Origin: a virus
Reading direction: 5' to 3' (one strand)
IMG/VR virus record: IMGVR_UViG_3300022602_000075
Span: 1 to 64,000 of that record
DNA: 64,000 nt
Made by a program: the position numbers and the translations under genes. Positions 4,462-48,801 of this stretch are shown one piece after another. Position 1 is the first letter of the stretch. Each line of letters begins with the position of its first letter. Under the pieces are notes generated by a model. It was not told the DNA's origin. It did not search any database and saw only the letters and a list, made by a program, of their open reading frames with translations.

Positions 4462-5100
4462 TTATATTTCTTTCTTGTTTTTACAGTTGTCACCGTGCCA
4501 ACGATGAAACATGTTAATACTTATACTCTTACCGCAGTGCCCACATATTTTTTTGATTTGTGAGGTGTGTCTGCCTTCGGCTAACATTTTTTCATTTATA
4601 CTGCCACCTAAGAAGTGATGCTTACCTTCAGCTACTAATTGTTTAGCTAATTTTCGTTGAATCTCTCCGCCGACAAAGGGATTTGTCCCTTCTTCTACTC
4701 TTTTTAGATTTCTTGCTCTGGTAATCTCTCCGCTATTCAAGAAATGATGAGTCCCGTTTTTTACGCGGTCTGAGCTAATACTTGAGCCGTCAGGTCTTTT
4801 TAATAGATGGTGAGATCCGTTATTAACCCGTAACTCAGCGGATTTAGAAGCGATATAGGATAATTCTTCGGCTGACAACTTCAATCTTCTTGCTAGTAAA
4901 TTACACGCTCCCCAATCACCCTGAGAAAAATGTATATCGTAGTGTTCTTTAATGGTAACCAATTTCAGATTTGATATGTCATTGTTTTCATGATTACCAT
5001 CAATGTGATGAATGTCCATAGGCTTACCGTCAGCATCCCGAGGAATAGCACCGAAGTGTTGTTTATAAATATTGCGGTGGTTATTATGTGGACTTAGCAT
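4462..5100 (-). CDS. HNH homing endonuclease
   Basis: 212 residues. The motif MDIHHIDGNHENNDISNLKLV (H31-H32, then N40 and N44) is a classic HNH core at the N-terminus. It is followed by repeated NUMOD-like DNA-binding units of the type VNNGSHHLL, VKNGTHHFL and VAEGKHHFL (about residues 90-175) and a C-terminal zinc knuckle (CGHCGKS with a later C). It stands between gp46 and the resolvase-like gene as a free-standing element with no intron signs; its target is unknown, though such genes usually cut near their own site in related phages lacking them. The family is certain enough; activity is not shown. Confidence 0.85.
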   Translation of the reverse strand: MLSPHNNHRNIYKQHFGAIPRDADGKPMDIHHIDGNHENNDISNLKLVTIKEHYDIHFSQGDWGACNLLARRLKLSAEELSYIASKSAELRVNNGSHHLLKRPDGSSISSDRVKNGTHHFLNSGEITRARNLKRVEEGTNPFVGGEIQRKLAKQLVAEGKHHFLGGSINEKMLAEGRHTSQIKKICGHCGKSISINMFHRWHGDNCKNKKEI

Positions 5101-26200: not shown

Positions 26201-29200
26201 ATATATTGCCACCAAATACACAAATTACTAGTATTACTAATCACTCAGGGGTACTATACATTGAAGTATCTTGGCCAAATCCTACAGTACTGTCAGGAAT
26301 AATCGGGGTATCACTTGTAGCCGATCCTAGCAGTAATACTAATTACGCTTTATTCCCTGGCGCTAGAGTTATATTTGCAGCCGATCCTGCTCAAAAAGCA
26401 AAAATATTTGTTGTAAACTTCTCTACAGTTACACAAGGATCACCTCCTGTTATTACATTAGCAGAAGCACCAGATGGTCAAATAGTAGCAGGTAATGTAG
26501 CAGCAGTAATCAGAGGATATAATAATCAAGGTTATAGTTTCTGGTACAACGGTACTGCTTGGGTACAGGCACAACAAAAGATTACCAACAATCAAGCACC
26601 ATTATTTGATGTGTTTGACTCAAATGGTATAAGTTTTGGAAATCCTGCATATTATGTTGGTACTTCATTCAAAGGATCACGTTTATTCTCTTACGCTATA
26701 GGTACTGGGCTTGCTGATAAGGTATTAGGATTCCCGCTAAGTTATAGTTCAGTAAACAATATTGGCGACATTAGTTTTGACGTATCATTCAATTCAGATA
26801 CTTTTACATATGTCAACAGTTCTTCTCCTGTTACTGAAAACGTAAACACTGGATTTGTTTATAACACAAATAGTTTAACTGACCACACTAGATTACTGGG
26901 TTGGCAAACAGCAGTAGGACCTAGCGTACAGTATCAGGTATTTGAATTTAACTATGTAAGAAATTATGTAGTACCTAACAACGCATTCTTGTTAGATGTT
27001 GCACCAGTTGCTTCTGATGTAGAGCCTTGGCCAGTCTTAGAAGTTTACGTAAACAATGTATTGCAACCATCTACTAACTACACTGTAACCACAACTAGTG
27101 ATTCTACTACTGTAGTAATCAATATTCCAAATCAGATAACAAACACACTTGTTCAGATTTTAGTGTTAAGTGATCAAGTAAGCAAATATGCGTTCTATCA
27201 GATTCCGATCAATCTAAGCAACAACCCATTCAACACAGATATTACTGTAACTAATGTAGGTGATATTAGACGACAATACGCAAGCATATTTAATAACTGC
27301 CCAAACACAACAGGACACGTATTTGGCTCTAACAATTATAGAGACTTGGGTAATTTAGTACCATACGGTAATGTTATTATACAGAATAGCGCATCTCTAG
27401 CATTACCTGCTACATTCTTGCGTAATCTAGATTTCAATATTTTTGATGCGCTAGCATACAATAGCAAAAAGTATGTTGAATACAAGAACCTAATCGTATA
27501 CACAGTAAATAGTTACCCATTCGACCAGCGTTATGATCCAGCATATGTATTGAACACTGCTATTGATCTTATCACTGCGGCTAAAGACAGTTCTCAATCA
27601 TTCTTCTGGAGTGATATGATTCCTGCCAAAGCCCCGTACGCATCAAATGCTTATACTTTCAAAAGCAACTTAGACAGAACAGTTTATCCTTTAACACAAA
27701 CTTATAATTTCAAAACAGCAAATTATAATGGTGTTTTAGTATACTTGTCTAGAACTATTAGCGGATTAACTATAACTAAGCAGCTAGTAATTAATCAAGA
27801 TTATACAGTAAGTGCTACTGCACCTTCGCTAGAAATTACTATTCAATTGCTAGCAGGTGACGTTGTAACTATCAACGAATACAATCAAACTTATGGAAGT
27901 TATGTACCAAACACTCCAACTAAGTTAGGATTGTATCCTGCTTTCATACCTGAAGTAGTTTTAGATACTGGTTATCAGCAACCAACTTACTTCATCAAGG
28001 GTCACGACGGTTCTTACAACAAACTGTACGGCGATTATATTCCTGAAACAGATACGCTTGTTGACTTTAGAGACCAAGCACTGCTTGAGTTTGAAAAGAG
28101 AGTGTATAACAATCTTAAGTTAAGCAACACTATTCCAATTCAAGCATATGAAGTTACACCGGGCTTCTTTAGAACAACTGACTATTCATACGATGAATGG
28201 TTAGAAATTTACACACCTGGATTCTTGAATTGGGTAGGACAAAACAAACTAGACTACAAGCAACAGTACTATAATTCTTACAACCAGTATACTTGGAACT
28301 ATAAGAAGACTACTAACAAAGTAGACAATAGCGTTATCGACATTGGTTACTGGAGAGGCGTGTATAGTTATTTCTACGACACAACTACTCCCAACACTAC
28401 ACCGTGGGAAATGTTAGGTTATAAGAACGAACCAAGTTGGTGGACTGACAGATATGGTCCAGCACCATACACCAGCAATAACTTAGTTCTTTGGGGAGAT
28501 TTAGCAGCAGGCTTAGACTGGAATAACGGAAATCCTGTTGTAATACCTAAAGCAGTTCGTAATGGATTGTTAAAAGTGTTGCCTGTAGACAGTCAGGGTA
28601 ATTTAATATCACCATTCCAAAGTGTAGTGGCTAATTACTATACTCCATCATTTGAAGCAAACTGGGTAGTTGGTGACGACGGCCCAGTAGAATTCAGTTA
28701 CAGACGCAGTAGCAGTTGGCCTTTCGACTTAATGCGTATTCTAGCACTCACTAAACCAGCAGAATTCTTTAATTTAGGCGCTTGGGTAGACAACTACAAA
28801 TACAGCGAAGAGTTCAACCAGTACTTAGTTGGTGGCAGAAGTCACTTAGTACCTAACGAAATTCCAGTATATGGTTCGGGCACACCTGTAACAAGTTATA
28901 TTAACTGGGTAGTTGACTACAGAAAGCAGTACGGTGTTGACGCTACTACAACAATCACTACGTTGATAAACAACTTAGATGTAAGATTAGTATACCGTTT
29001 AGCAGGATTCAGCGATCAAAACTTGTTGAATTTCTATATTCAAAGCACTAATCCAAATAGCAATAACTCTTCATTGCTAATACCAAATGAAAGTTATCAA
29101 GTGTTATTATACAGCAACCCACCATACAGCGTGTTGCAGTACTCAAGCGTAATCGTTCAAATCACTAATCAAGGTCAGTATGCCGTATTTGGTAATTCAC

Positions 29201-32200
29201 AGAATTCGGCGTATTTTTCAACTCTAGTACCTAAAAACGATGGGCAGACTAGTACTACAAAAGTAGATTCACTTTCAGTAACAGTACCTAGAAACTTTAC
29301 ATCGACCGAAGAAATGGTGCCATATGGTACTATATTCCAAACTCCGCAAGCAGTTGCAATATTCTTAGCCAGTTATGGTGCTTACTTAGAAGCGAATGGT
29401 GCAACATACGAATATCAACTTGGTGCCCTACCAATTAATTGGAATCAAATGATTTCAGAATTCTTGTACTGGGTACAAATTGGTTGGCAGCCGGGCGCAA
29501 TCACTACACTAAATCCTGCTGCTTATGAACTTACAATCAATAGAGAAAATCAGATCGTACAGCCACTAAGCGTACAAGGTGCAAACTTTGTATTAAATCA
29601 AAACTTGTATCCAATCAAGAATGCTGACTTATCAATTATCAGAAATGGTACACAGTTTAGCGTTACTCCTCTAAATCAGGGTGACACTATTAGTTATGGA
29701 CAATTCAACTTGAGTAATTTTGAAAACGCTTGCGTATTCAACAATACTACAATGTTTGGCGACACTATTTGCGATTTAGTAACTGGCTTAAGACAAAACA
29801 GATTATACTTGAGAGGGGCTAAAACTGCAAGTTGGAATGGTACATACACTGCGTCGGGCTTCATTATCAATCAAAATAATGTGGTACAATGGGATCCGGC
29901 AGCCAAGTACACTAAAGGACAAATTGTAAAATACAAAAATCAATACTGGGTCGCTCAAGATATTATACAACCAAGCGAAACATTCCAACAAAAGTATTGG
30001 TTGCTATCAAACTACAACATGATACAAACAGGTTTGTTGCCTAACTCTAGCACTAACTCGCTAGACAGTACATATTACTACAGCAATGAACAGTCTGCAC
30101 TCAATACAGACACTAACTTATTGTGTTACTCATTGATTGGATACAGACAGCGCGATTATGCTGCTATTGCTGATCTAACAGATGTAACACAAGTCAATGT
30201 TTATCAGAATTTGATCAAGACTAAGGGAAGCACTAATGCGGTTAGCGCATTTAAGGGCGCAACTTTACCTCACGGCGGCATAGATTATAACGTATACGAA
30301 AACTGGGCTATTTTGTCTAGCAATTTTGGCGGCGTGTTAAACAATAACTTTGTTCAGTTTAAACTTAACGCAGCAGAATTAAGTGGTAACCCCTTCATTG
30401 TGGGTTTAACTGACGGAGTATCTACTACTGGAGTAGAACAAGAAGTACCTCTTTACTCTTTATACAACTACAATTACAGTTCACCTCCAACCAGCCCTAA
30501 TGTATTACCTACTATAAGCCAATATGTTCCATCTACATTATTCCCTGATGCTGGATATGTGAACTTCAACGACGTTAAAATGTCGTCTTACTTCTATTCT
30601 CAATTGCCTACTGCCGTAAATCAACAAGGAGTAATTATACCTCTTACAAGTTTCTACGTAGGTGATTATGTTTGGTTAGCCAATTACTTAAATCAATGGA
30701 ATGTGTATACTCCAATTTCACTTGGTCAAGTTGTTGCTGTAACAAACAATTTAAATAATACTTGCACTGTAACATTCTCACAGATGCACAATTTAAAACA
30801 ATATGATTTGATCGCCATAACAAACTTTAATAGTGCAGTAAACGGATACTATACGGTTAATAATGTTGTTGACAATTATCAGATTACTATATTGTTGTCG
30901 TTAACTTCAAGTTCTCGTCAATTAATTGGTCAAGGCGTAGGTATGTATCTGTCCCCGCAGCGTGTAACTACACCTTCGCAAATCACAAATCTTCCTTTAG
31001 ATTCTTCTGAGTTTGTTAAGAACACAGTTTGGGTAGATACTAATAATGACGGTGGATGGGCAGTTTACCAAAAGAACATCAACTATCAGTTAGAAGAAGA
31101 AATCACTCAACCGCTCAATGATAGTTTGTCGTTTGGTAGTTCTGTAGTTTACAACAGTAACTTAGGTGGCTACTTAATTGGTGACCCTAATTTAGGAAAC
31201 GTATACAGATATGATCTTAACCAGGGCACGGGCGGATATGACTTATTCCAAACATTAACTCATGCTGCATCGTTTGGTTCTTCTATGGTAAACGAAGGAT
31301 CAATTTATGTAATATCACAACCTACAGGTACTCCAACTGTTTATATCTATACTATCAACAATTCGGTACTATCAGATCAACTAATTTCATACCAGGCAGG
31401 AATCACTGCGCCTAGCGGCGTAACTAATTGGGGTAGCGCATTAGCATTATCCGGTGATACTAATTGGTTGTATATCTCAGACACCGGTCATAATAAAGTT
31501 TATGTTTACAATAAGCAAAATATATTGTTAACTGCTGGCAGTTTTGTGACAGGTGAAACGTACACTATCAACAGCATTGGTACTACAGACTTTACTGCTG
31601 TAGGTGCAATCGAAAATAAAGTAGGAATTACATTTATCGCAACAGGTGCTGGATCAGGTACAGGCACAGCAACTCAATCTACATATAAATCTTCAGCAAT
31701 CATCGATGCTACTGGATTCTTGACCACTGGTGATAACTTTGGATACTCAATCGCAACTGATTACTACGGTGATACTGTTGTGATCGGTGCACCAGATGTT
31801 GACTACAGCACTGATTATCAAAACTGGGGTTCTGCGTATGTATATGAAAGAAGTGTGCAGAATTTCATAGCACCATACACATATCCTCTTAACTCAAATC
31901 CTGCACCATCTTTCCAATTAGCATGGTCTCCGTCAGCAGTACAAGTAAGCGTTAATAGTGTTGCAGTTCAAGCAAGCGAATACTCTATTTCAGGATCTAC
32001 TTTAACATACACCGGTTCTTTGACCGCGGGAGATATCATCAATGTAAGCGGAAATGTATTCACTAAAGTACAAACACTTACTACACAAAACAATCCTCAA
32101 GTAGGAGTGCAGTTTGGTCTATCAGTAGATACAACTGCTCATGCAGGTGAGATTATTGTCGGTGCCCCATTCGAATTAACACAGCAATTAGTAGAAGGTG

Positions 32201-35200
32201 CAGTATACAGATTTACTAACGGTGGTGCAGAGTACGGTCAAGTATATGGCACATCACCAGTAGCAACTACTGCTACTCGCACAATACTGATTAATGGCTT
32301 TGCTGCAACTATACCTTCTGGTGCTAATGCAGCAGTAGCAGCAAACACTATTAATCAAACTAATATTATCAACATTACTGCTAGTGCAACTAGCGACAAT
32401 AAACTAGTTATTAGTTTAACCAATCCTGCTTTAGCACAGGCTAATGAAAAATTACTAGTGACGGCACTAAACAGTTCAGCATTGACTGAATTAGGAGTTA
32501 ATACATACACTCAAACACAAGTTGTGCTATGCCCACATACAGAAGGGCCAACACAATTTGGTACTGTAGTCAAGTTCAATGAGTCGGGATCATTTGTAGC
32601 CAGTGCACCAGTTGGCACTAGATATGAAGATACGACATTTGATGTTGTAGATTATCCTGATCAGGATACAATCTTTGACAACAATACTACACAATTTATT
32701 GAGTCGTTCCCAAATGCTGGCGCAGTTTACATGTTTGATTATTTGGGTAACTACAACGAAACTCTACAAAATCCTGGATCATTTGTATATGCTCAAAGTG
32801 TAAATGCACCAAATCTAACATACGGTCCTCAGCCGCGTTACGGCACTGCTATTGACTTTGTTAGCAATCGAGTTGTAGTTGGCACACCAAATATGTACAA
32901 TTATGACATTAGTGCAACTACACTAACAGCCGGAGTAACATATACTATTGTATTCGTAGGAACAACAGACTTTACTGCAATTGGTGCTGTTTCGAACACG
33001 GTTGGTGTTACATTCGTTGCTACAGGGCCGGCTTCTGGTTCAGGATTTGCTACTGACGGTGATTTAGTAAGTTATGGTCAAGTAATTTCTTACACTAATT
33101 CTGTTGGTCAACAAGACTGGGAAGTTTACAGACAAACTGCACCAATTGTTGATACTGCAAGAATTGGGTACATGCAGATTTTCAGCGCACAAACTAATAA
33201 CACATTAGTAAACTTAGACTACTTTGATCCATTGCAGGACAAGTTATTAGGTGCAGTAGCAGAAAACATTGATGTTATTTCAAACAATGATCCTGCAAGT
33301 TACAATAATGGAAATGTAACTCAACGTGCATTAGTTTGGGGTAAAGAACATTTAGGCAATATTTGGTTTAATACTTCTAATGTTAGATTCGTAAACTATC
33401 ACCAAGATGATGTAGTATATAACAGTAAGTATTGGGGTGCGGTATTCCCTGGTAGTGATGTTGCAGTATATACTTGGGTAGCAAGCAATAACCCACCTGC
33501 AAACTATCAGGGCCCGGGCACACCATATAACACTAACCTATACACGATAGAAACTATATTAAATGCCTCACAATCAGCAGTACCTGTTTATTACTTCTGG
33601 GTAAGAAACACTAGTATTATCTTTAGTGAACAAGGAAAGACTCTATCTGACACCGTGCTGCAATCATATATCAGCAGTCCTCAAAACTCAGGTATAAGTT
33701 ACATTTCTCCAATACTACCTAATGTATTCTCAGTGTATAATTCACAGCAGTACTTGAACGGTAATGATAGTGTGCTGAATGTGGGTTATGCTACTGGTGT
33801 GACTAACGATCAATATCACACTGAATACTCACTCATTAGAGAAAATTATCCTGATGACTTCTTGCCAGGTTTACCAACTCTAGCAAATCCTACCCCAACA
33901 TTACTATATCAAAAATTATTGTATAGTTTGTCAGGCGTAGACGGAATAGGTCAAGTAGTACCAGATCCGTTCTTGCCAGTAGCAGTGCAATCTGGTGTTG
34001 CAGCACGACCAAGACAAAGTTTCTTCTTAGACAGATTCATAGCACTTCAAAATTACATTGAATTTGCAAACAATGTAATGAGCAAGTATCCTATCACTGA
34101 AATCAGAGAAAATGCTACTTACTTGTATGCTAAAGGTCCGTTCTACGACACATCTAATTATTGGGAGTTTATAAACTGGTGGGCACCTGGCTATGATAAT
34201 TCTATCAGATCATCTACAGTAGTACCTTTCTACGCAGATTTGTCAACTTTAAGCGTTGCACCAGGTACTATTGTAAAAGTACAATCTAACGGTGCAGGTA
34301 AATCAGAGTGGTATATCTTAGTAGCTGGAAACGTTTGGAATCGCATAGGGTTACAAAACGGCACAATTCAATTCAAGTCTAGCCTTTGGAATTACAAGGA
34401 TGCAGGATTTGGTTGGGGTAATAACTTCTTTGATACTGCGTCATTCGACACGTATCCTAGTGAAGAAACTTATTGGATAGCAAGAGCATTAACTGAACAG
34501 ATTTATACTAACGAATTGTTGGCTTACAGAAATAATAGTTTGATCTTATTGTTCCAGTATATTCAAAGCGAATCTGTATCTTCGCAAAACTATCTTACTT
34601 GGTTGAACAAGACTTCATTAGTAGATGTTTCACACAACATCAGACAATTGCTTCCTTATGAAAACTATCAGTCTGACAATCAAGATTTCTTAGCTGGATA
34701 CTTAGGAGAAGCATTACCTTACCACGTATTCATTAAAGAGTTTACATATGTATACACTGGTTCTAACACATGGGCCGGTAATGTAATCGACTTTGATTTA
34801 CCAGCACAATATAACACTACAATTGATCAGTTTGTATCACCTCAATTGGTATACAGTAATCCTGATAATGTTTATACATACTCACCAACGAGTCTAATTT
34901 GGCAGCAACCTGAGTACTATCAGTGGTTTACTAATTATGGAATTAGTCTGACAGGTGAAACCAACTACTTGATCGGTGAAATAACTGCTTATTTGGGATT
35001 AGGATCTTCGGTTATTGCAGTAACAAATGCTTCAGGATTCCCATTAAATGGTGTAATCATGATTGGTGAAGAAAAGATTGCATACTCTACTGTAAACCGT
35101 GCAAATAATACTTTAACCAACTTAGTAAGAGGTTACGGTGGTACTACTGTTAGCGTTCACTTCCCTGGCGAAAACATTTATATTGACTTGCCAGCAGTTC

Positions 35201-38200
35201 TAGTATTGAACGGTGGCAGAGGGTACACTAATCCACCTAAAGTAACTGCTTATATTGATACTTCAATTTATCCAGCACCTTCAGTACCTGCTCAATTAGA
35301 AGCAGTTATGAGTTTAGACTCGGTAGTTTCAGTAAATGTTATCGATCCAGGTAATGGATATGCAGTACTCCCACAAATCATTATAGATTACGCTGAGCAA
35401 ATTGTATTTGCAAGCACAAATGTAAATGTACTGTTTAGTACTATTCAGATTCCTACACCTCTCTTACAAACTGGAGACTTAGTAAAATACGAAATGTCTC
35501 CAAACGGACAGGCTATTGGTGGAGTTGAAAACAACCAATGGTACTACATAAACGTACTACAAAGCGCGCCTGCTGTTGTTGTAGCACTTTACACAACTTA
35601 CTTAGATGCAGTAAGTGATACGAACAGAGTATTCTTCTATAATCAAGGCTCGGGAACTGGTCATACTCTGAATTTAGGCGCAAAAGCATCTGCTGTTTCT
35701 ACAGCCGCGCCAATCAGAGAAAACAATATAACATTGAAGTTTGACAGAACTAGTTATAATTCTCAAGTATCAGAATGGACTCCTAATGCATTTTATGGTG
35801 CGTTCTTTACTGGGGATGCATTAAGTCAGTTACAAACTTCAAGTTCTACGCTGCCATTAAGTAGCACTCAGCCTGATATCAATTCTATATTAACTAGCGC
35901 ACAAGGCTGTGTATTTGAAATCGTAGACACTGGGAACATTCAGCAAGTTGAATGGTCTTCTTTTGTACGCACTGTGTCTGAAACTATAGCCTCAACAAAT
36001 GCAATTAGATTAATTCTAAGCAGCAGTACGCTAGAAAATGCTTCAGGTTCTACAGTTGGCATGGTTGAAGGAATGCCGGTACAGTTTAACGGTTTTGTTG
36101 GTTCAAGCGGTATTGTACCAAACACTGTGTACTATGTGAAAGAAGTATTAAGTCTTACAGACTTTACTATTTCAGCAACTTCAGGCGGCAGCACGCTTTC
36201 ATTGAGCAATCAAGTAATAACTGGTGCTGGATTAAATTGCTTAGTTGCACAAGTAACTAATACTGCAACACTGACTATGAACTATCCTGGCATAAGAACT
36301 GCTACTTCGGTCACTGCTAACAGTATTGCAAAACGTGGTTACATAACTGTACCGTTGAATTCAATTGGTACAGGTGGCACAAAGGGTATGTATTCTGGAT
36401 TACCTGTATTCTTTGTAGGGAATGTATTTGGCGGAGTAGTAGCAAATCAAGCATACTATGTCACTACGGTACTAGATAAGCAAAATTTCACAATTTCCAC
36501 TAGCGCAGACCCATACACGGTACAAGTAGAAGCAACTAATAGCAGTACCAATTATGTAACTTTGAATAGTACAACTGGACTTTCAGTTAATGATCCTATT
36601 GTTATTAACGAAATGGTTGTTGAAGGGCAAGCAGCAACTAGTTTTGGTAACATCGTTCCTTCTACAATTTACTATGTAAGTCAAATAATCGATGGTTTTA
36701 ACATAACGATTTCTACTGATTATAATGGTAGTACATTTGTGCTGTCTACAGTTTCATCCACTACTACAGTTACTGCTGGTTCTTTTGTAACAGGAGTTAC
36801 TTATACTATTCTAGATTTAGGAACTACTGATTTTACTTTGATTGGTGCAGCATCTAATACTATTGGAGTAGTATTTGTCGCAACAGGAGCAGGAACTGGT
36901 ACAGGTACTGCAACTTGCCGTTCTTTTGCAACTCTAGTAAGTCAAGCAAATACTGCACTTCTGACTACTTCTATTGGTGACATGACAATCAACTTGTCGC
37001 TACCAGTAAGTCCCGGACAAGTTAATGGTCAGTTGTTTACATTATACAAAACATCACAAGAATATTACCCAATTACATATACAGTTTCTAACGAATTAAC
37101 TGGCTCAATTGTTGCAACTATTGCAGGGGTTAATTATGCTGCTATATCTGCTACATATGGCACAGCAAATTTCTATGTAAACATGCCATTAAGAGTAAGT
37201 CACAATATTGGTAACTTGGTAACAGCAACTACTTACTATGTGACTAGCATTGGTGCAATAACAGTAGAAGTAACAGCAACTGCATCTTCTACAAATAGAC
37301 TTACTTGCAACGATACTTCTGTACTCTACGCTAACATGCCAATCGTCTTTAGTGGTACAGGGTTAGGTGGAATCACAATTAGTCAAACATATTATGTAAA
37401 AACAATAATAGATTCAACACACTTTACTATAAGCACTACACCGAGCGGTACTGTATTAACTCTTACCAGTGACACTGGTTCTATGACAGGCACTGGAGAT
37501 GCGTATATAACACTATCGACTTCGTTGGGAGGTGGCAACGTTTCGTTATCAAGTGACTATGGCCCAGTTACATATACACAGACACCTGTCACTCTGCCTG
37601 ATATAGCAGTTAATTACTTAGTAGGTGGCTACTCTGTAACTATCGTAGCCGGGGGGCAAGGAATGGCTACAACTAATGTACTAACAGTAAGCGGTACTGA
37701 AGTAGGTGGCGTATCCCCTGCCAATGACGTTACTATTGAAGTGAATGGAGTAGATAGTCAAGGATCTATAGTAAGTTTAACAGTCACGGGAACAGTACCT
37801 GCTGATTCACAAAGCAAGTATTACTTAAAAGTAACAGGAACAAATACATTTGAAGTGTATGCTGATCCGTTAATGGCAGTACCTGTAACAGGAATTGGAT
37901 TCCCATACACGGGAGTAAAATCAACTACTGCAACTACAGTTACTGCTTCCAATGACAGAGTTACTGTAGCAGATTCTACAATATTTGCAGTAAATGATTC
38001 AGTAGTATTCACTGGAGAAGTTTTCACTACAGATATTGTATTGGGTCAGACTTATTATATTAAGGCAAAACCAACATCAACTACTGTAACTATTTCTACT
38101 CTGCCTGGGGGTACTACATTAGATATAACTGCAAATGCATCTGGTTCTATGACTATGGCTGCTTTGGGTTCGTTTGCGTTCTTGTATGAACCATTCTATT

Positions 38201-41200
38201 TTAACCCAAGCATTGTTAAGTTCAGCAATCAACTGTATCGCTGCATAGTTAGCAATAATGATTCAGAATTTGTTTATGGCAAGTGGGAACTATTAGATTC
38301 GGGTGATCGTAGAATCAACGCACTAGACAGAATTGTTGGATACTATAAGCCTACAGTCAATATGCCTAGTTTCACGTACCATGAGACTTCACCGCTTCAG
38401 CCAGGAGTTTCAAGTGTTGACTTCTCACAATTATTGACTGGTACTACTTACCCTAACAGCACATACTTAGGTAATCCGTTCCAACCATCGCAACAGTTAC
38501 CGCTGAATGTAAAACTGCAAGATCAACCATTTATTGCAACTCTGCCAGCAGTATATGATGTACAAGGCTCAGCATTTACTTCAGGATTCGGCCCAGAAGA
38601 ACTAGTACCTGGTATTGTATCTGACAATCTATCTATGATAGTTAATACGCTACCGGGTAGTAATTGGGATCCTGCTCAATATGCACATGACGGTTATAAT
38701 GTAGTATCTCTACAATTTACACCTGCTTATTCAACCCAAACTGTTTACAGTTTTGATAGAGCAGTTCAAGTGCCCGCACAAGTAGCAGTATTTGTGATTA
38801 ATGGTTCTACTCAATTGTCTACTAGCATCTATAATAGCATAGATTATACTGTTGATTGGGTAAACAGTACTGTAATATTGAATAGTCCTCTAGCAGCATC
38901 TAATACTCTAAGAATAGATGTGTACGAAGTAGGCAATGGATACCAATTAGTCAAGTCAAGTACTAAGCGTGACCCTATTATACTAGATCCAGTTACTGGA
39001 TTCAATGGAATTCCATTAGATTGCAACTATGCCGGTAATATCAATAACGGCAACGGAATAGTAAGACCGGGTACGGCACCTATACAAACCAATGCTACTG
39101 CTACTATAAGCGCAACAAATTCTATTGTAGTAGACAATGTATCAAGTTTCATATTAAACAGTCCAATTACATTCCAAGGTAGCACTTTTGGAAACATTGT
39201 AGCAGGTACTACTTATTATGTAAAAACAATCAGCACTGTAACAGACAGTATTACGGTGTCTACAACATATGATATTTCAACCGGTATAGCAGGATCTACA
39301 TTCCACTTAAGTGACGCGGTGGGTAGTATGGTCTGCATCATCGAAACTGGCAACGGAGTATTCTGGAGTCCTCCAGTCGTATATCACAATGGTAATAAAC
39401 TAGTTTTGGGAACTATAAATTTTGCGATTTCAACTTCAGCAAGCACAGGATACATAACATGTAACTCTACTTCTGGATTAATAGCAAACACACCTATTAA
39501 GTTTAGCAATACAATGTTTGGTGGCGTAACTCCACAAACAACTTATTACATTTCTCATATTTTGGATTCTTATAAATTTAGTATATCTGCTACTCCTGGT
39601 GGAGCACCATTAACATTGACCGATGCAGTTGGTGGAGCATCGTTTATTACAAACGACTATGCTGCTGCGCTTTCGGCAGACGGTTTTACAGCCAAATTAG
39701 TGTTTGCTTCACTTTATGATCCTTCAGTAGATTATATTACCTATACACTGTTTGGAGAAACAGTTCCTCAATATAGCTATACTATACCTGAAACTCAAGT
39801 CTTTTCAAATATCACAGGATCTTCATTTACTTTAACTAATTATGTAGTTGAAGATAATCCTACTAACGCTATAGTAGAAGTAAATGGCGTAAGACAAACG
39901 GCTGCACAGTACACTATCAGCAGTTTATCAAACACCATAACATTCAATACTCCTCCACCGATCGGAAGTACAGTTGCAGTAACATCATATAACTTGACTG
40001 ATAATCAATACTTTAATACTCAATATGGTATTAGTGGTTCTTCTCTGTCTGCATCTACTACAGTTATAGTATCTGCTACAACAAACACAGTATCAACTTA
40101 TGACCAAAACGGCACAGTTGGATATGACACTCAATTGTACGCAGAAAATCTAAACACGCTAACACTAGATACTGGATATAACACTTCAGTGTTCACAATA
40201 GGTCAAGTGATTGTGTTCTCTGCTCCAACTATCGGCGGTATAGTAGCCGGTAAAAACTATTACATAGCACAAATAATAGATTCTTCTACGTTTACTATTT
40301 CGGAACTATTAGGTGGCGCACCAATTGCGGTAACTACTGCTACGGGAACAATGACTGGAAATCTAAACGGCATCACAGTAGCCGCGATTACTAATATCAG
40401 TAATGTCATATCAGATCCTCTTGCTACTACAACAGTAACTGGAACATCTTCTATAACTAACTTGATTACTTGTGCTTCAACTACTAACTTTGCTTTAAAT
40501 CAAACTGTGCAGTTTGAGGCTAGTGTTATTTCCGCTACATCAATTGTTATAGGGGCAACATATAGAATTGAATCATTAGGTACAACTGATTTTACAACTA
40601 TAGGTGCTGCTACAAATGCGGTTGGGGTAATCTTTATTGCTACAGGAGTGGGTACTGGTACAGGCACTGCACTATTGGCTACATTTGGCAACATAGATTT
40701 GTTGGGCCAAGTGTACTTTGTAAAAACTAAAGACAGTTCTACAACATTCTCTATTTCGGATCAAGCAGGTAACACAATTACATTAGGTACTGATTCCGGT
40801 TCGATAAAAGCAATAGTCGGTGGACAACCTACTATTAGAATAACAACTGGCGTACTTAATACTTTTGAAGACAATACTCTTGTTAGAATTGATGGAACAT
40901 TGGGTTCTACACAATTAAATAACCAGACGTTCTACGCTAAAGTAATTACAACTACTCAGTTTGACATTTACTCACAACCATACAGTCCTGCGTTTGGGGC
41001 TATTAACTCTCCAGTTACTAATGTATCTACTTGGCTTGGCGGTGGATATGCATGGAGAGATGGGCTATTCACTATAATTGATACCAAAGCAACTGCGACC
41101 GCACCGAATGGACTAATCACTGTTAATTCGACTACAGAGTTAATATTGGGTACCCCAGTATACTTCACTGTTTCGGGAACAGCACTTGGTTCAACCATTA

Positions 41201-42147
41201 TGGGAGGATTAATCGCAGGCAGAGAGTACTTTGTAAATCAAATTGTTCCTGGAACTGGTTTCTATGTCACCGAAACTAGAGGTGGCAACAATCTAGCACT
41301 TACTTCTGATACAGGTGGTGTCAACGTAACACAATGGCAACAAACTAATGTTGACCGTCTATGGGTAACAGTAAATGGGTATCGAGTTCCTTCTTCATCA
41401 CTGCGTTTGAATCCAGGAAATGATCTAAGCATACTAGCAAGTATTAATCCAGGTGACGAAGTAATTATTACTAGTATGGTGCCTTCGGCTACCCCAAATC
41501 AAATGACTTACTACATGAATGTAAATCAACTTGGGGTACCGGTAGTTTACAATGCTAACATGTCTAAAACTTGGTTAGTACGTGGATTAGAAAGTTTAGA
41601 TACAGTAATTTACGTCAACGATGTATCACAAATTACAGAAACTATTGTCCAAAACAATATTGCACCTGCACCAGTTGGAGGAGTAATCAGTATAGGATTG
41701 AATGTAGACAAGAGAACACTAACTAGCGTAACAGTTTACAACAACACAACTGGTCAAACTGTTCCAAGTAGCGCATATAGCGTTCAAATAGTTGACGCAT
41801 CTCCTACTCTGCTAATAACAGGGGGAGTCACTACAGGAAACTACTTGACGATAACTTCAATTCAGGGTAACTTAATCTATATTAACGGAGAACAAATTGT
41901 ATTTGGAGTAGTAGATTTTGCCACTAACACACTTACCCAATTGCAACGTGGAGCAAATGGCACTGCTACACAGACATTAATCGCTCCGTATACTCCTGTA
42001 CTAGGATTGCTGCCCGGCGATCGATTATCTGATACTTACTATAATCAAACTTGGAATCCAATCCCAGGAATCTACAATCTTACTGAGGGCGACCCGCTAC
42101 AGATAGCAGATACTGCCCCTGCTACTTTCTTAAATACGGGGAAATAA
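23299..42147 (+). CDS. giant 6282-residue baseplate/fibre protein (gp7 position)
   Basis: A single uninterrupted frame of 18.8 kb. The first about 150 residues (TLDFLPEIFQTPSNQQFLSA to FNQYYWLPEGPP) form a head domain I have seen in proteins next to gp6. Parts seen by eye: six approximately 50-residue repeats with DGxxWTTP (610-927); long unassigned parts (930-2600); an FG-GAP-like propeller with phrases such as VVIGAPD and IIVGAPFEL (about 2607-3200); four copies of a TTDFT module (2746, 3207, 4492, 5746); and about ten copies of a beta domain with YYVK (4253-6004). In T4 gp7 (1032 residues) follows gp6; here a wedge protein seems fused to a long fibre-like body. It ends 18 nt before the next small gene. 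Base composition is like its neighbours and no stop or frameshift breaks it. Confidence 0.8.
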   Translation: MAKVIRTLDFLPEIFQTPSNQQFLSATLDQLVNPPDLQKLQGFVGNRFGYGVNANDYYVTEPDATRTNYQLDPGVVFTKPGTSTATDFISYPGILNAINAAGGLANNNSRLFNSQFYSWDSFTNLDPLINFNQYYWLPEGPPAVTVAAATVFSAEDYVVTAEANGYNISVLGSDTGSINPTITLLRGGVYNFYVNQSTQFWIQGLPGVQGIDPTNPNQSVRQIYGVGNNGAETGIVTFTVPPANAQQQYILPGNNLVSLVSNIPYENLNGQLVSTIKNIDGVTSLNGMTVMFYDTGTPVNTNFYKIAYVGDPNNPTISLSVVSAIPVNQNINVVYGNTYGGLTFYLDNSNNIEQLPYISAPLDTLYYQDGSDPTRVGMIRLIESNVTNQLDINTQVLGQKNFTSTNGVVFTNGLKVQFNGDVVPSSYLTGQYYVQGVGTAIELLPVSDFIVSEPFTGDVLTPWDSTNWDIGNFSDTLYIPTYPDYITIARNSINRNPWSRSNRWFHIDVINATAQYNNDPSIATTFARQDNKAARPIIEFYPNLELFNYGSVGVSAVDFIDFRTTDCLNLVAGQPVYYPDVDVYTAYNANVFNPPVPTVGFTTPSPMGSINVANMRAVAISPTGVYVAVGYGTANSALYSVSTDGINWTTPASMNGVVVPAASMNSVTVNSAGLFVAVGGAGYPYYATSTDGINWTTPALMNGSSVYTQMRSVTVNSSGLFVAVGSDGSTYPLYATSTDGTNWTTPAIMNGSTSFAAMQAVTVNSSGLFVAVGYDGNQYPVYATSVDGSTWTTPTPMNGTTNPVRMLAVTVNSSGLFVAIGTDINTGYPVYSTSTTGSNWITPVAMTGSASGIRMTAVSTNYYGLFVAVGYDQNTVDGVAYRPVYSTSLDGSTWTAPAFMNNSIDPANIYGVAVDTIGGFVAVGDSGVSGVVSKSVIQLPSTSTTVTVPVASVTGTLEVGMYINDSQNILPPNTQITSITNHSGVLYIEVSWPNPTVLSGIIGVSLVADPSSNTNYALFPGARVIFAADPAQKAKIFVVNFSTVTQGSPPVITLAEAPDGQIVAGNVAAVIRGYNNQGYSFWYNGTAWVQAQQKITNNQAPLFDVFDSNGISFGNPAYYVGTSFKGSRLFSYAIGTGLADKVLGFPLSYSSVNNIGDISFDVSFNSDTFTYVNSSSPVTENVNTGFVYNTNSLTDHTRLLGWQTAVGPSVQYQVFEFNYVRNYVVPNNAFLLDVAPVASDVEPWPVLEVYVNNVLQPSTNYTVTTTSDSTTVVINIPNQITNTLVQILVLSDQVSKYAFYQIPINLSNNPFNTDITVTNVGDIRRQYASIFNNCPNTTGHVFGSNNYRDLGNLVPYGNVIIQNSASLALPATFLRNLDFNIFDALAYNSKKYVEYKNLIVYTVNSYPFDQRYDPAYVLNTAIDLITAAKDSSQSFFWSDMIPAKAPYASNAYTFKSNLDRTVYPLTQTYNFKTANYNGVLVYLSRTISGLTITKQLVINQDYTVSATAPSLEITIQLLAGDVVTINEYNQTYGSYVPNTPTKLGLYPAFIPEVVLDTGYQQPTYFIKGHDGSYNKLYGDYIPETDTLVDFRDQALLEFEKRVYNNLKLSNTIPIQAYEVTPGFFRTTDYSYDEWLEIYTPGFLNWVGQNKLDYKQQYYNSYNQYTWNYKKTTNKVDNSVIDIGYWRGVYSYFYDTTTPNTTPWEMLGYKNEPSWWTDRYGPAPYTSNNLVLWGDLAAGLDWNNGNPVVIPKAVRNGLLKVLPVDSQGNLISPFQSVVANYYTPSFEANWVVGDDGPVEFSYRRSSSWPFDLMRILALTKPAEFFNLGAWVDNYKYSEEFNQYLVGGRSHLVPNEIPVYGSGTPVTSYINWVVDYRKQYGVDATTTITTLINNLDVRLVYRLAGFSDQNLLNFYIQSTNPNSNNSSLLIPNESYQVLLYSNPPYSVLQYSSVIVQITNQGQYAVFGNSQNSAYFSTLVPKNDGQTSTTKVDSLSVTVPRNFTSTEEMVPYGTIFQTPQAVAIFLASYGAYLEANGATYEYQLGALPINWNQMISEFLYWVQIGWQPGAITTLNPAAYELTINRENQIVQPLSVQGANFVLNQNLYPIKNADLSIIRNGTQFSVTPLNQGDTISYGQFNLSNFENACVFNNTTMFGDTICDLVTGLRQNRLYLRGAKTASWNGTYTASGFIINQNNVVQWDPAAKYTKGQIVKYKNQYWVAQDIIQPSETFQQKYWLLSNYNMIQTGLLPNSSTNSLDSTYYYSNEQSALNTDTNLLCYSLIGYRQRDYAAIADLTDVTQVNVYQNLIKTKGSTNAVSAFKGATLPHGGIDYNVYENWAILSSNFGGVLNNNFVQFKLNAAELSGNPFIVGLTDGVSTTGVEQEVPLYSLYNYNYSSPPTSPNVLPTISQYVPSTLFPDAGYVNFNDVKMSSYFYSQLPTAVNQQGVIIPLTSFYVGDYVWLANYLNQWNVYTPISLGQVVAVTNNLNNTCTVTFSQMHNLKQYDLIAITNFNSAVNGYYTVNNVVDNYQITILLSLTSSSRQLIGQGVGMYLSPQRVTTPSQITNLPLDSSEFVKNTVWVDTNNDGGWAVYQKNINYQLEEEITQPLNDSLSFGSSVVYNSNLGGYLIGDPNLGNVYRYDLNQGTGGYDLFQTLTHAASFGSSMVNEGSIYVISQPTGTPTVYIYTINNSVLSDQLISYQAGITAPSGVTNWGSALALSGDTNWLYISDTGHNKVYVYNKQNILLTAGSFVTGETYTINSIGTTDFTAVGAIENKVGITFIATGAGSGTGTATQSTYKSSAIIDATGFLTTGDNFGYSIATDYYGDTVVIGAPDVDYSTDYQNWGSAYVYERSVQNFIAPYTYPLNSNPAPSFQLAWSPSAVQVSVNSVAVQASEYSISGSTLTYTGSLTAGDIINVSGNVFTKVQTLTTQNNPQVGVQFGLSVDTTAHAGEIIVGAPFELTQQLVEGAVYRFTNGGAEYGQVYGTSPVATTATRTILINGFAATIPSGANAAVAANTINQTNIINITASATSDNKLVISLTNPALAQANEKLLVTALNSSALTELGVNTYTQTQVVLCPHTEGPTQFGTVVKFNESGSFVASAPVGTRYEDTTFDVVDYPDQDTIFDNNTTQFIESFPNAGAVYMFDYLGNYNETLQNPGSFVYAQSVNAPNLTYGPQPRYGTAIDFVSNRVVVGTPNMYNYDISATTLTAGVTYTIVFVGTTDFTAIGAVSNTVGVTFVATGPASGSGFATDGDLVSYGQVISYTNSVGQQDWEVYRQTAPIVDTARIGYMQIFSAQTNNTLVNLDYFDPLQDKLLGAVAENIDVISNNDPASYNNGNVTQRALVWGKEHLGNIWFNTSNVRFVNYHQDDVVYNSKYWGAVFPGSDVAVYTWVASNNPPANYQGPGTPYNTNLYTIETILNASQSAVPVYYFWVRNTSIIFSEQGKTLSDTVLQSYISSPQNSGISYISPILPNVFSVYNSQQYLNGNDSVLNVGYATGVTNDQYHTEYSLIRENYPDDFLPGLPTLANPTPTLLYQKLLYSLSGVDGIGQVVPDPFLPVAVQSGVAARPRQSFFLDRFIALQNYIEFANNVMSKYPITEIRENATYLYAKGPFYDTSNYWEFINWWAPGYDNSIRSSTVVPFYADLSTLSVAPGTIVKVQSNGAGKSEWYILVAGNVWNRIGLQNGTIQFKSSLWNYKDAGFGWGNNFFDTASFDTYPSEETYWIARALTEQIYTNELLAYRNNSLILLFQYIQSESVSSQNYLTWLNKTSLVDVSHNIRQLLPYENYQSDNQDFLAGYLGEALPYHVFIKEFTYVYTGSNTWAGNVIDFDLPAQYNTTIDQFVSPQLVYSNPDNVYTYSPTSLIWQQPEYYQWFTNYGISLTGETNYLIGEITAYLGLGSSVIAVTNASGFPLNGVIMIGEEKIAYSTVNRANNTLTNLVRGYGGTTVSVHFPGENIYIDLPAVLVLNGGRGYTNPPKVTAYIDTSIYPAPSVPAQLEAVMSLDSVVSVNVIDPGNGYAVLPQIIIDYAEQIVFASTNVNVLFSTIQIPTPLLQTGDLVKYEMSPNGQAIGGVENNQWYYINVLQSAPAVVVALYTTYLDAVSDTNRVFFYNQGSGTGHTLNLGAKASAVSTAAPIRENNITLKFDRTSYNSQVSEWTPNAFYGAFFTGDALSQLQTSSSTLPLSSTQPDINSILTSAQGCVFEIVDTGNIQQVEWSSFVRTVSETIASTNAIRLILSSSTLENASGSTVGMVEGMPVQFNGFVGSSGIVPNTVYYVKEVLSLTDFTISATSGGSTLSLSNQVITGAGLNCLVAQVTNTATLTMNYPGIRTATSVTANSIAKRGYITVPLNSIGTGGTKGMYSGLPVFFVGNVFGGVVANQAYYVTTVLDKQNFTISTSADPYTVQVEATNSSTNYVTLNSTTGLSVNDPIVINEMVVEGQAATSFGNIVPSTIYYVSQIIDGFNITISTDYNGSTFVLSTVSSTTTVTAGSFVTGVTYTILDLGTTDFTLIGAASNTIGVVFVATGAGTGTGTATCRSFATLVSQANTALLTTSIGDMTINLSLPVSPGQVNGQLFTLYKTSQEYYPITYTVSNELTGSIVATIAGVNYAAISATYGTANFYVNMPLRVSHNIGNLVTATTYYVTSIGAITVEVTATASSTNRLTCNDTSVLYANMPIVFSGTGLGGITISQTYYVKTIIDSTHFTISTTPSGTVLTLTSDTGSMTGTGDAYITLSTSLGGGNVSLSSDYGPVTYTQTPVTLPDIAVNYLVGGYSVTIVAGGQGMATTNVLTVSGTEVGGVSPANDVTIEVNGVDSQGSIVSLTVTGTVPADSQSKYYLKVTGTNTFEVYADPLMAVPVTGIGFPYTGVKSTTATTVTASNDRVTVADSTIFAVNDSVVFTGEVFTTDIVLGQTYYIKAKPTSTTVTISTLPGGTTLDITANASGSMTMAALGSFAFLYEPFYFNPSIVKFSNQLYRCIVSNNDSEFVYGKWELLDSGDRRINALDRIVGYYKPTVNMPSFTYHETSPLQPGVSSVDFSQLLTGTTYPNSTYLGNPFQPSQQLPLNVKLQDQPFIATLPAVYDVQGSAFTSGFGPEELVPGIVSDNLSMIVNTLPGSNWDPAQYAHDGYNVVSLQFTPAYSTQTVYSFDRAVQVPAQVAVFVINGSTQLSTSIYNSIDYTVDWVNSTVILNSPLAASNTLRIDVYEVGNGYQLVKSSTKRDPIILDPVTGFNGIPLDCNYAGNINNGNGIVRPGTAPIQTNATATISATNSIVVDNVSSFILNSPITFQGSTFGNIVAGTTYYVKTISTVTDSITVSTTYDISTGIAGSTFHLSDAVGSMVCIIETGNGVFWSPPVVYHNGNKLVLGTINFAISTSASTGYITCNSTSGLIANTPIKFSNTMFGGVTPQTTYYISHILDSYKFSISATPGGAPLTLTDAVGGASFITNDYAAALSADGFTAKLVFASLYDPSVDYITYTLFGETVPQYSYTIPETQVFSNITGSSFTLTNYVVEDNPTNAIVEVNGVRQTAAQYTISSLSNTITFNTPPPIGSTVAVTSYNLTDNQYFNTQYGISGSSLSASTTVIVSATTNTVSTYDQNGTVGYDTQLYAENLNTLTLDTGYNTSVFTIGQVIVFSAPTIGGIVAGKNYYIAQIIDSSTFTISELLGGAPIAVTTATGTMTGNLNGITVAAITNISNVISDPLATTTVTGTSSITNLITCASTTNFALNQTVQFEASVISATSIVIGATYRIESLGTTDFTTIGAATNAVGVIFIATGVGTGTGTALLATFGNIDLLGQVYFVKTKDSSTTFSISDQAGNTITLGTDSGSIKAIVGGQPTIRITTGVLNTFEDNTLVRIDGTLGSTQLNNQTFYAKVITTTQFDIYSQPYSPAFGAINSPVTNVSTWLGGGYAWRDGLFTIIDTKATATAPNGLITVNSTTELILGTPVYFTVSGTALGSTIMGGLIAGREYFVNQIVPGTGFYVTETRGGNNLALTSDTGGVNVTQWQQTNVDRLWVTVNGYRVPSSSLRLNPGNDLSILASINPGDEVIITSMVPSATPNQMTYYMNVNQLGVPVVYNANMSKTWLVRGLESLDTVIYVNDVSQITETIVQNNIAPAPVGGVISIGLNVDKRTLTSVTVYNNTTGQTVPSSAYSVQIVDASPTLLITGGVTTGNYLTITSIQGNLIYINGEQIVFGVVDFATNTLTQLQRGANGTATQTLIAPYTPVLGLLPGDRLSDTYYNQTWNPIPGIYNLTEGDPLQIADTAPATFLNTGK
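25130..26090 (+). repeat. six tandem DGxxWTTP repeats in the giant protein
   Basis: Six coding repeats of about 160 nt, each carrying SxDGxxWTTPxxMNG after a VAVGY-like strand. The pattern resembles BNR/Kelch-type propeller blades, so they may form one six-bladed propeller. Confidence 0.75.
31535..40680 (+). repeat. four dispersed copies of a TTDFT/ATGxGTGTG module
   Basis: Copies at about 31535-31680, 32917-33060, 36772-36920 and 40535-40680 encode a 48-residue unit with TYTI, GTTDFT, IGA, NTVGVxFxATG and a Gly/Thr end. The DNA has diverged while the protein is well kept. Copies 1 and 2 lie within or at the edge of the FG-GAP-like region, copies 3 and 4 within the YYVK array, so the unit looks like a movable insert. 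Confidence 0.75.
36055..41310 (+). repeat. array of about ten YYVK beta domains
   Basis: Roughly ten units follow the pattern PVxFxG, FGGIxxGxTYYVK, FTISxxxGGxxLxLT and a final GSM. Spacing is irregular because other sequence, including TTDFT modules, is inserted between them. They likely form a shaft of similar small beta folds. Confidence 0.7.
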
Positions 42148-47333: not shown

Positions 47334-47384
47334 CATTATCCGTTTTAGTTGAACCAGACTGTAATAAATGATATAAGAGTATCT

Positions 47385-47392
47385 TATAAATA
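47385..47392 (+). promoter_or_regulatory. late promoter TATAAATA, exact T4 consensus, 5 nt from an ATG
   Basis: Ends 5 nt before the ATG at 47398. Predicted leaderless transcript that may run on into the tmRNA region. Confidence 0.75.
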
Positions 47393-47397
47393 TTGTT

Positions 47398-47556
47398 ATG
47401 AAACAGAAAAAGATACTCCGTGAAATTTACGCAGCTTGTCTTACGCATAATACCACTCGCCTTTATGAATTGCAATTAGAAGAGTTTAAAAAAATCTTCA
47501 AACGCAAACAAGAAGGCAAGTCGGTCTCCAAACCCAAGTATACAGTGGTACGATAG
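47398..47556 (+). CDS. small basic unknown protein
   Basis: 52 residues, rich in Lys/Arg/Gln with a helical middle (LYELQLEEFKKIFKRKQEG). It starts 5 nt after a TATAAATA box with no ribosome site. The stop is 20 nt before the first copy of the 30-nt duplication that flanks the HNH cassette, so before that insertion it would have been the gene just upstream of the tmRNA. Function unknown. Confidence 0.6.
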   Translation: MKQKKILREIYAACLTHNTTRLYELQLEEFKKIFKRKQEGKSVSKPKYTVVR

Positions 47557-47575
47557 ATAAGTAATTTTAATGGTA

Positions 47576-47605
47576 GTAAACTCTTAAGTAAAGGCGTCTT
47601 GGACC
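47576..47605 (+). repeat. left copy of 30-nt duplication (tmRNA acceptor-piece remnant)
   Basis: Matches 48097-48126 at 27 of 30 bases. It corresponds to the sequence just 5' of the tmRNA T-arm but here is followed by the HNH promoter instead of the T-arm, so it is a truncated leftover. Confidence 0.85.
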
Positions 47606-47615
47606 TACCGTATAG

Positions 47616-47623
47616 CATAAATA
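47616..47623 (+). promoter_or_regulatory. late promoter CATAAATA, 4 nt from the HNH ATG
   Basis: Box carried inside the inserted cassette, 4 nt from the ATG at 47628. The endonuclease thus brings its own late promoter. Confidence 0.6.
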
Positions 47624-47627
47624 CTTT

Positions 47628-48089
47628 ATGCTGCACAAACACCACATAATACCTAGACATGCAGGAGGAACAGATGATCCTTCTAATCTAGTTGAACTTA
47701 CTGTGGCAGAACATGCCGAAGCTCATAGGTTATTATTTGAACAATACGGTAGATGGCAAGATCGTGTAGCATGGTTAAGTTTATCTGGGATTATAAAAGA
47801 CGAAGAAAGAATTAACGAATTAATAAGAAGTTGGCGTGGTAGGAAACATACTGAAGAAAGTAAATCAAAAATTTCTGTCTTTCAAAAAGGAAGAAAACAT
47901 AGTGAAGAATCTAAACTAAAAATTAGCAAAAGTTTGAAAGGAAAACCATCTAAGTCTAAAGGTAAAACCAGATCAGAGGAATTTAAACAAAATGTTTCTA
48001 ATCAAAAGTTAGGAAATGATTATGGTAAATTCTTTAAAGGAAAATCGTGGCACAAAGATCCCGTTACTGGTAAAAGAGTATGGGATTAA
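47628..48089 (+). CDS. HNH homing endonuclease inserted in the tmRNA locus
   Basis: 153 residues. HKHHIIPRHAGGTDDPSNLV at the N-terminus is an HNH core (HH, then N), followed by AEHAEAHRLL. The second half has NUMOD3-type repeats (GRKHTEESKSKIS, GRKHSEESKLKIS, GKTRSEEFKQNVS), which bind DNA in many homing endonucleases. The cassette sits between two copies of a 30-nt sequence from the tmRNA acceptor piece, so the tmRNA gene is a likely target. Start 4 nt after a late box. No group I intron structure was seen around it. Confidence 0.85.
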   Translation: MLHKHHIIPRHAGGTDDPSNLVELTVAEHAEAHRLLFEQYGRWQDRVAWLSLSGIIKDEERINELIRSWRGRKHTEESKSKISVFQKGRKHSEESKLKISKSLKGKPSKSKGKTRSEEFKQNVSNQKLGNDYGKFFKGKSWHKDPVTGKRVWD

Positions 48090-48096
48090 AAACAGC

Positions 48097-48126
48097 GTAA
48101 ACATTTAAGTAAAGGTGTCTTGGACC
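48097..48126 (+). repeat. right copy of 30-nt duplication (functional copy)
   Basis: Three mismatches from 47576-47605. It restores the segment that precedes the tmRNA T-arm, keeping the tmRNA complete after the insertion. Confidence 0.85.
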
Positions 48127-48153
48127 GGGGTTCGATTCCCCGATGCTCCACCA
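48105..48153 (+). ncRNA. ssrA: acceptor piece of a circularly permuted tmRNA
   Basis: It ends with a T-arm (stem CGGGG/CCCCG at 48126-48130 and 48138-48142, loop TTCGATT), the strand ATGCTCC, discriminator A and an encoded CCA (48151-48153). ATGCTCC pairs with GGGGCAT at 48159-48165 over seven bases, and the third pair is G-U, the alanine identity mark of tmRNA. TGTCTTG (48116-48122) can pair with CAAGGTA (48177-48183) as a P2 helix using two wobbles. The 5' end is not certain. Because this 3' half comes before the 5' half in the gene, the molecule would be a two-piece tmRNA after processing. Confidence 0.8.
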
Positions 48154-48158
48154 ACTAT

Positions 48159-48321
48159 GGGGCATATCGGTTTCGACAAGGTAAGTAATAGTCAAAATGC
48201 GCTCGACAGGCGAATGTCGTTAATATAGCAAAACATATAAATGCTAACGATAGCGTTTACGCTTTAGCGGCCTAAAAAACTTGCTAAGCCGGGGTTGGTA
48301 ACCTTGTCAAATAATAACCAG
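48159..48321 (+). ncRNA. ssrA: coding piece of the permuted tmRNA with tag ORF
   Basis: It starts GGGGCAT then ATCGGTTTCGAC, the typical tmRNA 5' end and D-loop. A stem CGACA/TGTCG (48204-48219) fits pseudoknot 1. The tag frame starts at GCA 48228 and reads AKHINANDSVYALAA before TAA at 48273-48275; starting at GCT 48243 instead would give ANDSVYALAA, the same length as the E. coli tag. The C-terminal ALAA is the protease signal. GACAAGGT (48175-48182) can also pair with ACCTTGTC (48301-48308), enclosing the whole piece. Only 5 nt (48154-48158) separate it from the CCA of the acceptor piece. It is followed by a strong terminator. Role: rescue of stalled ribosomes. Confidence 0.85.
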
Positions 48322-48348
48322 AAAAGGCTCGCAAGAGCCTTTTCTTTT
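48322..48348 (+). terminator. rho-independent terminator of the tmRNA
   Basis: AAAAGGCTC-GCAA-GAGCCTTTT is a perfect 9-bp stem with a GCAA tetraloop followed by a T-rich run. It overlaps the start of the next late promoter box. Confidence 0.9.
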
Positions 48349-48355
48349 ATAAATA
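48348..48355 (+). promoter_or_regulatory. late promoter TATAAATA, 5 nt from an ATG
   Basis: Exact T4 consensus; ends 5 nt before the ATG at 48361. Predicted leaderless start. Confidence 0.75.
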
Positions 48356-48360
48356 TTGGT

Positions 48361-48801
48361 ATGATTCCCTTATATGTCTCTTACGTAGCTAAACTTCAAG
48401 GTGTGTCAGTCAACCTTAATAAAATGACGTTTGACTACGAAGTTATCAAAGACCGAATTCAAGACAACAAATTTTACTTAATGAAAGACAATCAGTATGC
48501 TAAAGAAGCTGATTTGTTGGAATACACAGTCAATATTATAGAATATATCAGAAAGTCGGTTTTGTTCAACATCATAACTTACGAAGTGCTGCGACCTAAT
48601 ACTGCACTACCGTGGTCACTAACATCTGACAAGTACAGTCATCACATTCCACTTGTGACTAACGGGGGTTGCTGGACTGTATACGAGAATAATACGTTTC
48701 ATCTGCCCGCCGACGGGACAATCTATACTGTAAACAAAGGCAAAGGACACAGCTTTATCAACGCGGGGCTAGAACCCAGAGTGCATTTGACGTTAGAATA
48801 A
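48361..48801 (+). CDS. aspartyl/asparaginyl hydroxylase-like protein
   Basis: 146 residues from the ATG that lies 5 nt after TATAAATA. A longer reading from 48295 would run through the tmRNA and its terminator and is rejected. The C-terminal half has HHIPLVTNGGCWTVYENN, then LPADGTIYTVNKGKGHSFIN and EPRVHLTLE, the layout of the Asp/Asn beta-hydroxylase type of 2-oxoglutarate/Fe(II) enzymes or related cupins: an early His, a late His before an Asn, and a final Arg. A target in host or phage is not evident. Confidence 0.55.
   Translation: MIPLYVSYVAKLQGVSVNLNKMTFDYEVIKDRIQDNKFYLMKDNQYAKEADLLEYTVNIIEYIRKSVLFNIITYEVLRPNTALPWSLTSDKYSHHIPLVTNGGCWTVYENNTFHLPADGTIYTVNKGKGHSFINAGLEPRVHLTLE

Follow-up and report, generated by a model that had tools for sequence, protein, structure and literature searches.

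A permuted tmRNA gene of a T4-like virus preceded by a candidate homing endonuclease gene and a dead tmRNA head

We analysed a stretch of 64,000 nucleotides (the window) of the 72,019-base virus record IMGVR_UViG_3300022602_000075. Upstream of a complete circularly permuted tmRNA gene (48,094-48,343) we found, on the same strand, an HNH endonuclease gene and, further upstream, the dead head of a second type of tmRNA. We think that the locus is recombinant and that the acceptor half of a resident tmRNA gene was replaced at the T-arm in an endonuclease-associated event; our probability for this reading is about 0.55. A preliminary description, made from the sequence alone, had recognised a phage-encoded permuted tmRNA and knew of no other in phages. 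Permuted phage tmRNAs are in fact already known as a kind: one study counts 133 unique tmRNA structures from phages, 53 of them two-piece (PMC9004378), and another, which also sets out the permuted model that we used, compiles 79 phage tmRNAs (PMC11915505). IMG/VR holds many more. Our pattern scan of it returned at least 119 stretches, most with plausible tags; some are clear chance matches since they are high in GC and have no tag, and about 100 further permuted tmRNA loci are found among the matches listed. The window tmRNA is a clean addition to this growing set of two-piece phage tmRNAs, and what is new is the dead head and the HNH gene upstream of it.

The tmRNA matched two covariance models over their whole length, beta_tmRNA (RF01850; 136.1 bits, E 2e-41, cut-off 84) and tmRNA_permuted (RF04321; 129 bits, cut-off 47). 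Independently, ARAGORN called a permuted tmRNA* with the tag ANDSVYALAA. The model alignment and the sequence place the T-arm (48,126-48,142), the acceptor 3' strand ATGCTCC (48,143-48,149) and ACCA (48,150-48,153) in one segment (48,126-48,153). The acceptor 3' strand and CCA (48,143-48,153) thus stand ahead of the acceptor 5' strand GGGGCAT (48,159-48,165), which is the permuted order. Between them lies the 5-nt intervening segment ACTAT (48,154-48,158), present as described before and identical in L004/L064. The seven acceptor pairs reported earlier, with G-U as the third, agree with both the sequence and the model alignment, and the T-loop, UUCGAUU, is uninterrupted. The gene opens with a head that we call type B (48,092-48,126), placed by the start of the RF04321 match and also opening the intact tmRNAs of L207, L208 and L219. 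Its AGCGT (P2 3' strand, 48,094-48,098) pairs, as AGCGU, with GCGCU of the coding piece (P2 5' strand GCGCT, 48,199-48,203). In the alignments to RF01850 and RF04321 the coding piece runs from the acceptor 5' strand to the tag stop (48,159-48,275) and contains TTCGAC at 48,172-48,177.

The tag frame (48,243-48,275) begins at the resume codon GCT 48,243, as aligned to the beta-tmRNA model, and encodes ANDSVYALAA with a hydrophobic LAA-type tail, followed by the stop TAA (48,273-48,275). The tag end YALAA given in the preliminary description therefore stands. However, its tag of 15 residues (AKHINANDSVYALAA), thought to be longer than the usual 10-residue type, is ruled out by the model alignment and ARAGORN, and ten residues is the ordinary beta-type length. 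The remainder of the coding piece, together with the terminator, occupies 48,276-48,348, with the RF01850 match reaching 48,343; the terminator that had been noticed after the coding piece is a hairpin at 48,322-48,343 (stem 48,322-48,330/48,335-48,343) with a T-rich stretch after it. The working RNA is thus a normal two-piece (permuted) beta-type tmRNA. We infer that its transcript would be cut at the acceptor stem with loss of the 5-nt linker, and that the two pieces would be held together by acceptor-stem and P2 pairing. Stalled products would then be tagged with ANDSVYALAA, presumably via the host SmpB, since the contig, a fragment, yielded no SmpB gene. The RNA may plausibly serve to tag proteins of the phage or of the host.

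The second head lies at 47,569-47,604 (+). Its sequence, AATGGTAGTAAACTCTTAAGTAAAGGCGTCTTGGAC, extends from a P2 3' strand GGTAG to the first T-arm bases. Other phages have intact permuted tmRNAs that begin with it, and we call this type A. Intact type A heads are carried by L047, L121, L122, L125-L131 and L133, and with those of L047, L121, L125 and L133 the remnant is identical over 36 nt. A direct repeat of 30 nt with 90% identity (47,576-47,605 and 48,097-48,126) brackets the HNH endonuclease ORF and had been overlooked in the preliminary description. In the intact type A genes the coding piece contains a CTACC, to which GGTAG of the head pairs. The remnant's GGUAG likewise needs CUACC, and the coding piece in the window has no such partner; the head of the working gene differs from the remnant (AACAGCGTAAAC) and pairs with GCGCT. 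When scored for P2 pairing, type A heads reach a mean of 14.6 when the coding piece is of type A and 6.8 when it is of type B, and the three remnants described here and below score 6.5-8 with their own coding pieces, so the two types are orthogonal in P2. Moreover, the type A head in the window ends at the T-arm and has no acceptor. Since it cannot pair with its own coding piece, it is dead as a part of a tmRNA. We also considered the stretch that follows the remnant (47,605-47,650) as a decayed coding piece and rejected it, as its score is reached by 15% of the other 46-mers of the window.

Between the type A remnant and the type B head lies an ORF for a protein of 153 aa (47,628-48,089, +). 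It contains both NUMOD3 (1.8e-13) and HNH (3e-5) by Pfam, each above the cut-off, and it falls into PHROG 655, homing endonuclease (1e-23). By tblastn it matches phage proteins annotated as MobE; no close solved structure was found for it. We regard it as a candidate homing endonuclease gene of the free-standing, MobE-like type. A hairpin, AGCATAAA/TTTATGCT (47,614-47,632, +), is predicted over its start codon; the fold of 47,612-47,634 has -7.0 kcal/mol, which is reached by 0.15% of mononucleotide shuffles. Within the hairpin stands CATAAATA (47,616-47,623, +), which probably acts as a late promoter, judged by the T4 late consensus. On the + strand no NATAAATA motif occurs between this promoter-like motif and the tmRNA, and therefore the HNH gene and the tmRNA may be co-transcribed. 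Late-promoter-like NATAAATA motifs are present in the window at 19,356, 47,616, 48,348, 48,797 and 59,443, and end 4-5 nt ahead of the start codons at 19,369, 47,628, 48,361, 48,809 and 59,456. Such spacing would yield leaderless or nearly leaderless late messages. Relatives of the HNH gene are also seen inside phage tRNA gene arrays (L144, L145, L146). A group I intron in the tmRNA is ruled out, as no intron family was detected in 47,340-48,420 at E up to 1 and the working T-loop is uninterrupted.

The same fusion of a type A remnant with a type B tmRNA is found in two other phage lineages. In L123/L124 the type A remnant breaks off after TTGGACGGGGGTGCGA and is followed by an HNH gene other than that of the window, then by a type B head and a complete permuted tmRNA (106.8 bits). 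In L004, L064 and L132 about 15 nt separate the two heads and there is no endonuclease gene; this lineage also has intact type A genes (L129, L130). The breakpoints of the three fusion lineages lie close together in the T-arm, no more than about 12 nt apart. The intact A or B genes of relatives have no endonuclease gene, and intact endonuclease-free type B is represented by L207, L208, L219 and relatives.

By gene order, intact type A phages (L122, L126, L127, L128, L133), L123/L124 and L209 share one locus, F5-F7-F4-tmRNA-F2-F0-F1-F3, where some contigs span only a part and L125 is partly rearranged. The intact type B phages L207, L208 and L219 have the downstream half of this order in common, and L207 also part of F4. 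In L209 only the tail of an HNH gene is left ahead of the type B tmRNA. The empty site for the L123 type is clear by gene order. For the window, L190/L197 have a tmRNA without an HNH gene before the same downstream genes, with another head type. We did not see an HNH-free allele of the window phage itself, because the closest relatives, L156 and L157 of the same lineage, begin at the 3' end of the tmRNA.

The coding pieces themselves are mosaic, B-like across P2 and, in L123 and L004, A-like around the tag. Over 48,120-48,178, from the T-arm through the acceptor and linker into the first part of the coding piece, the window has the same sequence as L004/L064, although the rest of the tmRNA and the neighbouring genes differ between the window and L004, which points to an exchange of this short stretch. 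Small ORFs were seen in the intervening segments of other permuted tmRNAs: in L202, where the tmRNA lies at 433-1,174, the segment of about 380 nt holds an ORF of 122 aa (538-906) with no match in a Pfam search, and those of L125/L133 and L129 hold ORFs of about 38 aa.

We propose that a resident type A permuted tmRNA gene was broken in its T-arm, perhaps by an HNH enzyme. Repair from a type B tmRNA gene adjoining a MobE-like HNH gene would have carried the endonuclease gene along and would have put type B sequence in place of the whole stretch from the T-arm to the P2 5' strand or beyond. Both the head and the strand that pairs with it would therefore have been exchanged jointly, and the 36-nt head of the resident gene would have stayed behind, dead, upstream of the HNH gene. 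The recurrence with a different HNH gene in L123/L124, the HNH tail before the type B tmRNA in L209 and the mosaic coding pieces argue for such an endonuclease-associated swap, as do L149 and L150, where relatives of the window's HNH gene adjoin permuted tmRNAs in divergent orientation. On the other side stand the endonuclease-free fusion of L004, the lack of a complete HNH-free allele in the window's lineage and the finding that the HNH proteins of the window and L123 can be aligned only across a core of 36 residues. A wider proposal would be that HNH endonucleases of T4-like phages target the T-arm of type A genes and that a resistant type B acceptor half, with a P2 orthogonal to that of the resident gene, travels with them. 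Such homing by half-gene replacement would have happened on two or more occasions, each with another HNH gene; we put this forward tentatively and give it a little less than an even chance.

The serious rival is ordinary phage mosaicism. Illegitimate recombination between tmRNA alleles would have made a partial duplication, and the HNH genes would have settled later in a useless spacer. The L004/L064/L132 fusion, with its heads about 15 nt apart and no endonuclease gene, speaks for it, and homing endonuclease genes are common in T4-like phages. We also found no general enrichment of such genes next to phage permuted tmRNAs: for 89 near ORFs none was present among the 25 families listed of 33, while the comparison set of 110 far ORFs did contain HNH and SegE matches. 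Against it stand the breaks in three lineages, no more than about 12 nt apart in the T-arm, the different HNH genes exactly at the break in two of the three, and the relatives of the window's HNH gene beside the tmRNAs of L149 and L150. We therefore consider it somewhat improbable, though well worth keeping in mind.

Far less probable is that the upstream head is functional, either as an alternative acceptor head or as an RNA element that regulates the HNH gene or the tmRNA in cis. Its 36 nt are perfectly conserved, and it can be folded into a hairpin with the CTACCG just after it. This conservation is also what a recent derivation from type A heads would give, and the remnant has neither a complete T-arm nor an acceptor, does not pair with the coding piece and matches no Rfam family other than tmRNA above cut-off. 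Least probable of all is that the working tmRNA is a relic that has decayed or is not expressed, or that it is an artefact of assembly or host contamination: we found no SmpB gene in the contig, but every pair and the tag frame are preserved, another contig (L134/L135/L155) has the same locus, the flanks are phage genes and the heads are unmatched in the collection of bacterial and archaeal genomes.

The contig carries T4-type genes (T4 baseplate protein, gp25) and belongs to a T4-like virus, which makes the host contamination raised in the preliminary description very unlikely. Neither the type A nor the type B head had a match among the contigs of 84,980 bacterial and archaeal species genomes, and we rejected a bacterial origin of the heads. 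In cultured phages only short T-arm matches to the window's tmRNA were found. L134 is a contig that otherwise matches the window and carries, at its end, two copies of the type A remnant with 83 nt between them; this may be a tandem copy or, so near the contig end, more likely an assembly effect. Elsewhere in the window, a single ORF of 6,282 codons (23,299-42,147) adjoins virion structural genes, and two more nuclease-like genes (4,462-5,100 and 7,979-9,583, - strand) flank SbcCD-like genes, one with HNH_3 and the other with DUF7487 and a weak MTES_1575 match.

The two-piece form suggests that tmRNA genes are modular, so that a half could be swapped if its P2 partner moves too. If homing endonucleases drive such swaps, as they may, this would tie selfish DNA to the spread of a ribosome-rescue gene among phages.

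Among known systems, the working RNA resembles the two-piece tmRNA of Betaproteobacteria (RF01850/RF04321) in its whole-model match, acceptor and P2 pairing, 10-residue AND...ALAA tag and an intervening segment between acceptor and coding piece. It differs in being phage-encoded and in the very short intervening segment of 5 nt, and heads of types A and B are unmatched in the bacterial genome collection. The methylophage Melnitz, a T4-like myophage from water, also has a complete two-piece tmRNA gene (PMC9004378). However, that tmRNA is of the alphaproteobacterial type and comes with a glutamine riboswitch, whereas ours is of the beta type and is preceded by an HNH gene and a dead head.

T4-like phages have free-standing homing endonuclease genes, among them those of MobE (HNH) and SegB, and show intronless homing; SegB, in the tRNA gene region, drives the inheritance of a region of stable-RNA genes (PMC2988022). 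The HNH gene of the window is likewise free of an intron and sits in a spacer beside a conserved gene, and its predicted late promoter in a start-codon hairpin recalls those of segB and the Aeh1 mobE. In contrast to these systems, it adjoins a permuted tmRNA and is bordered upstream by a gene remnant. Homing endonuclease genes have been described at exchange boundaries (PMC10448857), and in fungal mitochondria mobile ORFs have formed gene hybrids in Allomyces and Glomus atp6 and others (PMC3630166). There, too, an endonuclease gene comes with a foreign piece that takes the place of a resident part, and the displaced piece stays as a remnant, but the part is a protein C-terminus, while in the window it would be the acceptor half of a phage RNA gene with the remnant upstream. 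Finally, group I introns with LAGLIDADG genes occur in the tmRNA T-loop (PMC11915505) and also link an endonuclease to invasion at the T-arm. The window has an HNH gene instead of a LAGLIDADG gene, no intron, and a permuted gene, which would be whole because it was replaced and not because it is spliced.
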